Shown: in pieces, positions 7,201 to 47,566 of the stretch
Numbering within the stretch: position 1 is the first letter of the stretch
Layout of the letters: the number at the start of each line of letters is the position of its first letter
Assembly: GCA_008360975.2 (NCBI GenBank)
Contig: VLJF02000034.1
Span: 2,129,810 to 2,193,809, forward strand
Direction of reading: 5' to 3'
Source of the DNA: Lichenostomus cassidix
Lineage: Eukaryota; Chordata; Aves; Passeriformes; Meliphagidae
DNA: 64,000 nt
The notes under the pieces: generated by a model
What the model was told of the DNA's origin: nothing
The model's database searches: none
Seen by the model: the letters and a program-made list of their open reading frames with translations, nothing else
Program-made: the position numbers and the translations under genes

Positions 7201-10200
7201 GGCATTTTTGTGTGGTTTTGTGGGATAATTTGGGGTGTTTTTTGGGTATTTTTTGGGTATTTTTTTAAATAATTTTGTGTGGTTTTTCAGGTATTTTTTG
7301 GGATAATTTTGGGATAATTTTGGGACAATTTTGGGCTATTTTTGGGCTATTTTTTGGGTGATTTGGTTACCTCCTGAGCCTCTTGGTGACCTCTCCAGCC
7401 AAAGCTCCAACATTCCCAAAAGGATCTTTCAGAGCTGCTTGGACTCCTCGCAGCTGAACCCCCAGCGTCTGCATCGGGGAAATTTGGGGAAAATTGGGGA
7501 AAATCAACCCCAAAAATTGGGGAAAATGAACCCCAAAAATTGGGGAAAAAGGATTCTGAAGTTTGGGGAAAAAATCCTGAAGTTTGGGGTAAAAATGTTG
7601 AAATTTGGGGGAAAAAATCCCCAAATTTGGTGGAGAAAACCACTGAAATTTGGGAAAATTTGGGGAAAATTAACCCCAAATATTGGGGGAAAACAGACTG
7701 AAAGTTGGGGGAAAAATCTTGAAGTTTGGGGGAAAAAATCCCCAAATTTGGGGGGAAAAATAATGAAATTTTGGGAAAAAATGCTGAAATTTGGGGTGGA
7801 AAAACACTGAAATTTGGGGGAAATTTGGAGAAAATCAACCCCAAAATTGAGGGAAAATGAGACTGAAATTTGGGGGAATAAATGCTGAAATTTTGGGGAA
7901 AAAATGCTGAAATTTGGGGGAGAAAATGCTGAAATTTGGGGAAAATTTGGGGAAAATTTGGGGAAAACTTGGGGAAAATCAACCCCAAATATTGAGGAAA
8001 AAGAGACTGAAAGTTGGGGAAAAAATCCTGAAGTTTGGGGGGAAAAATCCCCAAATTTGGGGAAGAAAAACACTGAAATTTGGGGGAAATTTGGAGAAAA
8101 TCAACCCCAAATAGTGAGGAAAGAGAGACTGAAATTTGGGGAAAAAATCCTGAAGTTTTGGGGAAAAAAATCCCAATTTTAGGGGAAAAAATGGCAAAAT
8201 TTGGGGGGGAAATGTTGAAATTTTGGGGGAAAAAATGCTGAAATTTGGGGGAAAAAATGCTGAAATTTGGGGAAAAATGGGGAAAATGAACCCCAAATAT
8301 TGAGGAAAAACAGACTGAAAGTTGGGGGAAAAATCCTGAAGTTTGGGGGAAAAAATCCCCAAATTTGGGGGGAAAAATAATGAAATTTTGGGAAAAAATG
8401 CTGAAATTTGGGGTGGAAAAACACTGAAGTTTGGGGAAAATTTGGGGAAAATCAACCCCAAATATTGAGGAAAAAGAGACTGAAATTTGGGGGAAAAATC
8501 CTAAAATTTGGGGGGAAAATCCACAAATTTGGGGAAGAAAAACACTGAAATTTGGGGGAGAAAACCACTGAAATTTGGGGGAAATTTGGAGAAAATCAAC
8601 CCCAAAATTGAGGGAAAAGGAGACTGAAATTTGGGGAAAAAATCCTGAAATTTGGGGGAAAAATCCTGAAGTTTTGGGGGGAAAATCCCCAAAATTGGGG
8701 AAAATGAATCCCAAAATTCAGGGAAAATCCCCAAATCCCCAGAGGATCCCAAACTCTGAGTTTCCACTGGAAAATCCCCAATTTGGGGTGATTTGAATGG
8801 AAAATTCCCCAATTTTGGGGATCCCAGTCCCTCCCAGTCCCTCCCAGTACAAACCAGTACAAACCAGTTCCATCCCAGTACAAACCAGTTCATCCCAGTT
8901 CCCCTTTTCACCCCAAAATTCCCATTTTTGCCCCTAAAATCCTCATTTTTCACCCCAAAACCACCCAGATTTTTGCTCCCAGTCCCTCCCAGTATAAACC
9001 AGTTCCTCCCAGTCCATTCCCAGTTCCCTCCCAGTCCCTCCCAGTCCATCCCAGTTCCATCCCAGTCCATCCCAGTATAAACCAGTTCATCCCTGTCTAA
9101 CCCAGTTCCCCTTTTCACCCCAAAATTCCCATTTTTGCCCCTAAAATCCTCACTTTTCACCCCAAAACTACCCAGATTTTTGTTTCCAGTTCCTCCCAGT
9201 CCATTCCCAGTATAAACCAGTCCATCCCAGTCCATTCCCAGTACAAACCAGTATAAACCAGTTCCATCCCAGTCCATCCCAGTTCCTCCCAGTTCCCTTT
9301 TTCTCCCCAAAATTCCCATTTTTTGCCCCTAAAATCCTCATTTTTCACCCCAAAATCACTCAGATTTTTCCTCCCAGTCCATTCCCAGTCCCTCCCAGTA
9401 CAAACCAGTATAAACCAGTCAGACCTGGAATCCCTGCAGAGCCACGAAGAGCCTCAGGATGTCGTTTGTTCCTTCGAAGATCCGGAAAATCCTCAAATCC
9501 CGCAGGACTCTCTCCACCCCTGGCTCCTGAAATCCCAAAAAAATCCCAAAAAAATCCCCAAAAAATTTTGGGATTACGAAAGGAAAAATCAGGGAAAAGA
9601 AAAAATTTGGGAGAATAAAAAAAATCCGGAAAAAAAAGCTCAAAAAATGAGGAAATTGGGAAAAAAACAACCAAAAATTCACAGAAAAAATGAAAAAAAA
9701 TTCGGGAAATTCCTAAAAAATTTGGGAATTTTGATCCCAAAAATTTAGGGAAAAATGTAAATTCTGAGTGGAAAAAAAATTGGGAAAAATATCAGGAAAT
9801 AAGGAAATTTGGAGGAAAAACAGGAAAAAATAGGAAAATCATCAAATCCTGCAGAACTTCTGGTTCCTAAAATTCCCAAAAATTTCATGGAAAATTCCCA
9901 AAAATTCCAGGGAAAAATTGAAAATGTCAAGCTGGAAAAAATCCAGGAAAAAATGCCCAAAAAAGTGAGGAAATTCCAAGGAAAAAATCTCCAAATTTGC
10001 CCAAAATTCATGGAATTTTCCTGAAAAAAAAGGGGGAAAAAAATTCCCAAAAATCAGAAAAACCACAAAATTTGGAGAATTTCATTGGAAAATGGGAAAA
10101 ATTTCAAAAATCAGGAAAACATTTCAAATTTCTGAATTCCAAAAATCCCCAAAATTTGCCCAAAATCCCAGGAATTTTCCTGAAAAATGGGAAAAAAAAT

Positions 10201-47566: not shown

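Follow-up and report, generated by a model that had tools for sequence, protein, structure and literature searches.

Probable exon stuttering at an ACADVL-PHF23-GABARAP locus of a songbird and a synonymous excess among variants shared by exon-edge copies

Analysis of a 64,000-nt window of songbird DNA (the whole stretch under study) revealed that in three genes, ACADVL, PHF23 and one resembling DLG4, introns contain tandem copies of the edges of their own flanking exons, including the splice sites. We give a probability of about 0.8 to the reading that this ACADVL-PHF23-GABARAP locus represents exon stuttering, as named for dot-chromosome genes of chicken (Hron et al., 2026; PMC12954441). It is a new case of a known kind, real and well supported, and the statement of the first-pass annotation that no named class describes such arrays does not hold. 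New is the synonymous signal found among the variants of the copies, which was tested post hoc but looks robust.

Gene content of the window and exon-edge copies

Exons were placed in the window by tblastn with human protein queries and by GT-AG motifs. All genes found are on the minus strand, namely ACADVL, PHF23, GABARAP, gene X and ACADVL again (Table 1). The identity of ACADVL was confirmed by matches to solved structures; the joined ACADVL protein showed, among the matches listed (120 of 7981), 86% identity to Ammospiza and Lonchura, 83% to Aphelocoma and 71-80% to other named birds. Judging from its sequence, gene X is probably DLG4: it resembles the L27 segment of DLG4, with weak matches to the L27 domain in Pfam (E 0.019, below cut-off) and to a DLG1 L27 entry in the PDB (E 5.9). 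The gene order DLG4-like, ACADVL, PHF23, GABARAP, with one strand throughout, was observed at 28026-29830 and 47566-49860, and presumably differs from the human order in the orientation of ACADVL. The window has an N gap of 500 bases at 43088-43587, a GC content of 0.58 in exons and 0.40 in introns, and an extreme strand skew whose sign flips along its whole length (GC skew from -0.65 to +0.62 in 2-kb steps). We infer a dot-chromosome location for the locus.

Table 1. Position of genes, source exons and exon-edge copies in the window
Feature	Coordinates	Strand	Evidence or remark
ACADVL copy A	1..28026	-	exons 19 to 1; tblastn and GT-AG
ACADVL copy B	49860..64000	-	exons 20 to 11; tblastn and GT-AG; second occurrence of the gene
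PHF23	41156 to 31652	-	tblastn and GT-AG; PHD finger confirms identity
GABARAP Atg8 tail (last exon)	41534-41599	-	Atg8 match E 1.4e-4, below curated cut-off
Gene X	47566 to 44603	-	exons by tblastn and GT-AG
ACADVL exon 14	9425-9526	-	source exon of marginal acceptor copy
ACADVL exon 14 acceptor-edge copy, marginal, one gapped	9833..9882	-	35 vs 32 in edge probes
ACADVL exon 14 homologous acceptor copy, second ACADVL	61027-61076	-	matches the copy at 9833..9882
ACADVL exon 8, acceptor-copy source	18510..18639	-	tblastn and GT-AG
ACADVL exon 8 acceptor-edge copy, n=1	18942..19010	-	57 exon nt; 67/69 identical
ACADVL exon 7, donor-array source	21526..21670	-	tblastn and GT-AG
ACADVL exon 7 donor-edge copies, n=6, intron 7	20513..21405	-	up to 27 exon nt and GTGAG; screen and edge probes
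PHF23 exon 5 coding part, PHD finger	31652..31854	-	tblastn, GT-AG, domain match
PHF23 exon 5 acceptor-edge copies, n=13 (12 junction-spanning), intron 4	31895..32748	-	
PHF23 exon 4 donor-edge copies, n=10, intron 4	32747..34109	-	junction-spanning
PHF23 exon 4	34207..34771	-	tblastn and GT-AG
PHF23 exon 4 acceptor-edge copies, n=16, intron 3	34839..36792	-	partly within a 390-bp higher-order repeat
PHF23 exon 1 donor-edge copies, n=12	39902..41051	-	carry ATG and donor; GT retained in 8
PHF23 exon 1, start-codon region to donor	41132..41156	-	5'-most copy, taken as the true exon
GABARAP exon 3 donor-edge copies, n=4	42184..42928	-	encode 10 protein letters
Gene X exon 2 donor-edge copies, n=6	43632..44456	-	GT retained in 3
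Gene X exon 2, L27 domain start	44603..44707	-	screen; weak L27 match
Gene X exon 2 acceptor-edge copy, n=1	44888..44928	-	screen and edge probes

Each exon was compared with all introns of the window by blastn-short, keeping matches of at least 20 nt, which is the published design of Hron et al. (PMC12954441). The screen covered 36 introns (32 complete and four truncated at a window end or at the gap) with a total of 53,450 bp. At 30 bits or more, 52 matches were obtained, and 50 of them lay in an adjacent intron, all 50 on the same strand as the exon; the remaining two were antisense, in a non-adjacent intron, and came from one twice-present exon (ACADVL exon 11). At 42.1 bits or more, all 30 matches were in adjacent introns. 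The best match in 20 dinucleotide shuffles ranged from 0 to 40.1 bits (19 of 20 at 30.2 or below), and the reversed exons gave one match, of 26.3 bits. Edge probes against the same-side adjacent intron scored 44-80 at eight of 68 edges, or at eight of 49 by our row count once the second ACADVL copy is removed, while the best non-adjacent intron reached 26 at most. These eight strong edges, which sit in six introns, are the donor of ACADVL exon 7, the acceptor of ACADVL exon 8, the donor of PHF23 exon 1, both edges of PHF23 exon 4, the acceptor of PHF23 exon 5 and both edges of exon 2 of gene X. The next-best edge was that of ACADVL exon 14 (35 against 32, in both copies of the gene), followed by 18 against 16, which is noise. 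In these comparisons the model of ACADVL exon 16, which no array touches, was 5 nt short in the blastn screen, the edge probes and the exon comparison of copies A and B, and that of PHF23 exon 1 was 1 nt short in the screen and the edge probes, and right in the count of junction copies.

Eleven such arrays had been claimed by the first-pass annotation, and the eight strong edges are among them. At the acceptor of ACADVL exon 14 the claimed array amounts to a single gapped copy, present in both ACADVL copies, and is marginal. The evidence for the donor array of GABARAP exon 3 is indirect: four copies were found, but the source exon was not found within the window and lies perhaps inside the N gap. 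The acceptor of ACADVL exon 7 was rejected as an exon-edge array, with an edge-probe score of 14 against 22 and copies that hold about two exon bases inside a CCCAGT-type repeat. Copies that cross the exon-intron junction number 64 at the strong edges, 34 of them at donors and 30 at acceptors, with GT retained in 27 of the 34 donors and AG in all acceptors; identity to the source was 95% in the short intron parts. The claim of junction-spanning copies that extend through the neighbouring intron and bring many decoy splice sites is borne out.

The fixed polarity described earlier, with donor copies downstream and acceptor copies upstream, is real, as the strong copies occur only on the side of the copied edge. 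It needs no special mechanism, however, and adds no information: as long as the coding exon stays whole, tandem duplication over a donor can place copies downstream only, and over an acceptor upstream only. With antisense edge probes, the score exceeded that of every non-adjacent intron for 3 of 68 edges, with a margin of 1-4 points, and the opposite-side intron did so in 4 of 62 cases (by 2 points or less). PHF23 exons 1-5 and ACADVL exons 1-8 read open, with no internal stops; tandem repetition within exons is limited to a run of TCC in PHF23 exon 4; and the ACADVL frameshifts (1 nt in exon 17 of copy A; 2 nt, in a C run, in exon 13 of copy B) are small indels and not repeat copies.

Two further structures were observed in PHF23. 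At 32719-32790, an exon 4 donor copy abuts an exon 5 acceptor copy, forming within the intron a near-spliced exon 4-exon 5 junction with 3 nt missing. An mRNA retrocopy was rejected as its origin, since the piece has variants typical of the arrays (TCG at codon 237 and TTG at codon 244); both parts have GGTGA in common, so that in our reading it is enough to assume that a donor copy became joined to an acceptor copy. A second array in intron 1 (38850-39850) has, by reading, a unit centred on GGTACC, CCGGTACCGG, and this unit is also present at the exon 1 donor: GGAGGTACCGG.

Turnover of introns and origin of the arrays

The two ACADVL copies let intron turnover be compared directly with exon change. 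The nine exons in common differed by three mismatches and three gap columns in 745 columns, while the lengths of the eight paired introns, measured in a single assembly that has an N gap and frameshifting exon indels, gave B to A ratios of 0.84, 0.54, 0.82, 0.71, 1.24, 1.70, 1.31, and 1.02; seven of the eight differ by more than 10%, between copies that may be alleles or paralogues. Aligned intron bases were 5.9% different, a value that misaligned repeats make too high, and 124 indels were 10 nt or longer. Five ACADVL introns were examined for long repeat units, and the three with long units in both copies (introns 13, 16, and 17) had differing copy numbers (2.8 vs 2.0, 4.2 vs 9.3, and 4.1 vs 6.8). 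The segments 1-13833 and 50422-63987 thus have near-identical exons and very different introns, with the N gap between them. By reading of the unaligned sequences, a short GC-richer insert was observed at 980-1034 in intron 19 of copy A, and none was seen in the matching part of copy B.

The doubled gene is probably explained by two haplotypes that were joined in tandem within one scaffold, which is likelier than a true duplication. Both copies do belong to the same scaffold and are separated by DLG4-like exons, but a genuine recent tandem duplication is rather improbable, given that the N gap lies between the copies and that the orders DLG4-ACADVL and ACADVL-PHF23-GABARAP, compared with the human gene order, fit a single locus read twice. 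The conclusion of fast intron turnover stands, because haplotypes and duplication lead to it alike.

It had also been proposed that the repeats begin by duplication over exon-intron junctions and spread from there into the intron. Tandem repeats make up more than 50% of each of the 36 introns or part-introns (median TRF coverage 0.895). Clear exon edges, however, were seen in only six of the 26 introns outside the second ACADVL copy, or seven if GABARAP is counted, which indicates that edges are not the general seed. A significant drop of identity with distance from the exon was detected in only one of six arrays, and outward growth from the exon is therefore not generally supported. Homeology at the exon-side breakpoints gave no overall signal among the seven tested (mean percentile 0.63), with percentiles of 0.06 and 0.11 at the two ACADVL edges. 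The finding that a copy is closer to another copy than to the exon (59 of 62) was dropped as evidence, as the windows compared include array flanks absent from the exon.

It is unlikely that exon edges are preferred seeds, with most arrays having begun at a junction and the exon part having decayed later. The clear edges that persist and the composition of PHF23 intron 4, which consists largely of edge units, speak for such an origin. Against it stand the other introns, which have no clear exon trace; the ACADVL-PHF23 intergenic stretch, which by reading is repetitive too; and ACADVL intron 7, which by reading has an extensive array of intronic sequence but just one copy from exon 8. Moreover, by a rough estimate, units of about 100 bp in short ancestral introns would often catch an edge by random placement. 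Exon involvement appears instead to be a by-product of segments chancing to span a junction.

The process at this locus may accordingly be pictured as follows. Replication slippage, unequal exchange or repair would duplicate segments at any position, and whenever the duplicated stretch includes an exon junction, the additional edge would always end on the intron side. There it would be tolerated as long as splicing picks the outermost site, and later unit-wise gain and loss together with exchange of short tracts would reshuffle the copies. The 390-bp higher-order repeat in PHF23 intron 3 speaks for amplification within the array as well. The exon edge itself may join this exchange, as a recurrent template, as a recipient, or as both.

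Synonymous excess among shared variants and the decoy splice sites

The synonymous pattern was noticed in the alignments first and tested afterwards, and this post hoc result needs replication. Over the eight arrays, 30 distinct changes were synonymous and 22 were not, against an expected synonymous fraction of about 0.27-0.29. Shared and private changes were counted only in arrays and at sites with at least five copies, leaving six arrays. Changes common to at least two copies (and to less than 75%) comprised 18 synonymous and 7 nonsynonymous ones, whereas private changes comprised 5 and 14, respectively, as expected without constraint; a Fisher test of shared against private changes gave a p of 0.005, and the one near-fixed change was synonymous. 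When read in the wrong frames, 8 and 2 of the 25 shared changes were synonymous. The direction held when each array was left out in turn (lowest 11 to 7). In permutations matched for base change, also with CpG status, and with sites drawn from fixed, approximate stretches per array, 18 shared synonymous changes were reached in none of 20,000 draws, and the private changes gave a p of 0.6. The sample is small, with 25 shared changes and 7 of the 18 synonymous ones coming from one array.

This contrast between shared and private changes suggests exchange with the exon, or repeated copying from it. In crude simulations with parameters set by hand, the synonymous fraction of shared changes was 0.29-0.33 when an array was founded once and then amplified neutrally, and about 0.35-0.40 under moderate re-seeding from the exon; the first simulation did not exceed 0.38 and failed to reproduce the observed 0.72. 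The second simulation came near this value in two corners, near-exclusive copying from the exon (0.71-0.78) and frequent two-way exchange with purging (0.73). Two-way exchange with purging fits better, because near-exclusive exon copying predicts far fewer shared than private changes, and 25 shared to 19 private were seen. Four-gamete failures, found in 13/21, 10/15, 3/6, and 0/10 site pairs of the four arrays in which pairs could be tested, indicate either mosaic copies or recurrent mutation.

We tentatively propose, as a possibility somewhat short of even odds, that exon edges and intronic decoys form one exchanging repeat family, in which sequence moves between exon and decoys in short tracts and probably both ways, so that the protein indirectly constrains the decoys, and the synonymous sites of the exon drift with the array. 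Participation of the exon edge in exchange would be the reason why the variants shared by the decoys are mostly synonymous. If so, stuttering would feed back on the coding sequence and be more than intron noise, stuttering bird genes would gain an intragenic source of exon-edge change, and the process could bear on the fast evolution and loss of dot-chromosome genes.

The decoys with intact dinucleotides are predicted from the sequence to be disruptive: if used, 53 of the 57 would add an in-frame stop, four would cause a frameshift with no stop codon in the extra sequence, and not one would preserve an open frame. Use of a decoy would thus nearly always truncate the protein, so that a working gene must mostly ignore them. 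It is very unlikely that the edge copies are regulated alternative or poison splice sites kept by selection, as might be suggested by the dinucleotides retained in 57 of the 64 copies and by the mostly synonymous common variants; GT is lost in 7 of the 34 donors, the intact decoys have the disruptive effects just given, and a synonymous constraint makes no sense for a decoy that is read through. Also very unlikely is the view that a draft long-read assembly produced the arrays, or the exon sequence in them, by error. The N gap, the two frameshifting exon indels and the doubled ACADVL are signs of imperfect assembly, but the copies are diverged (93% identity of exon parts, 2079/2237) and form ordered units, both ACADVL copies have the same weak copy of exon 14, and a similar structure in chicken PHF8 was verified with raw nanopore reads (PMC12954441).

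Comparison with known systems

Minisatellite or VNTR families turn over by unit-wise gain and loss, form higher-order repeats and evolve in concert by exchange among copies. The features found here are alike, but one member of each array is a coding exon edge under selection.

Introns made of tandem motifs were described in GC-rich "hidden" genes of chicken such as TNF-alpha, MRPL52, PCP2, and PET100, and repeats also in the introns of crow TNF-alpha (Beauclair et al., 2019; PMC6792250). The introns of the window are likewise made of tandem motifs, whereas exon-edge copies are not described in the available part of that paper, where leptin and crow TNF-alpha have 64-70% GC, above the values for exons and introns here.

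The closest system is the sequence or exon stuttering of avian dot-chromosome genes named in chicken, an imperfect local tandem expansion within introns in which lateral exon parts with their donor or acceptor are copied to the adjacent intron, while the exon is unaltered (Hron et al., 2026; PMC12954441). The introns concerned are rich in simple repeats and vary in length between alleles, the genes show a strong preference for dot chromosomes, and the published list contains 115 chicken exon-stuttering genes (PMC12954441). The authors also note expanded repeats in birds other than chicken and consider, as a speculation, repair or non-crossover conversion as the cause; ACADVL, PHF23, and GABARAP, as well as the words "synonymous" and "concerted", are absent from the main text (PMC12954441). 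In the literature on stuttering, passerine dot chromosomes, exon fragments in adjacent introns and exon-decoy conversion, no further report of exon stuttering was found in titles and abstract starts among the matches listed. The locus agrees with the chicken cases (PMC12954441) in the direct adjacent copies at eight edges, in the 64 junction-spanning copies with their splice site (57 with the dinucleotide intact), in introns covered by repeats (36 of 36 above 50%) and in unaltered coding exons. Intron length probably also varies between alleles, if the two ACADVL copies are haplotypes and not paralogues. It differs in belonging to a songbird and not to chicken, and with the instability known from chicken also at a songbird locus, birds would have had this process for long or acquired it repeatedly.
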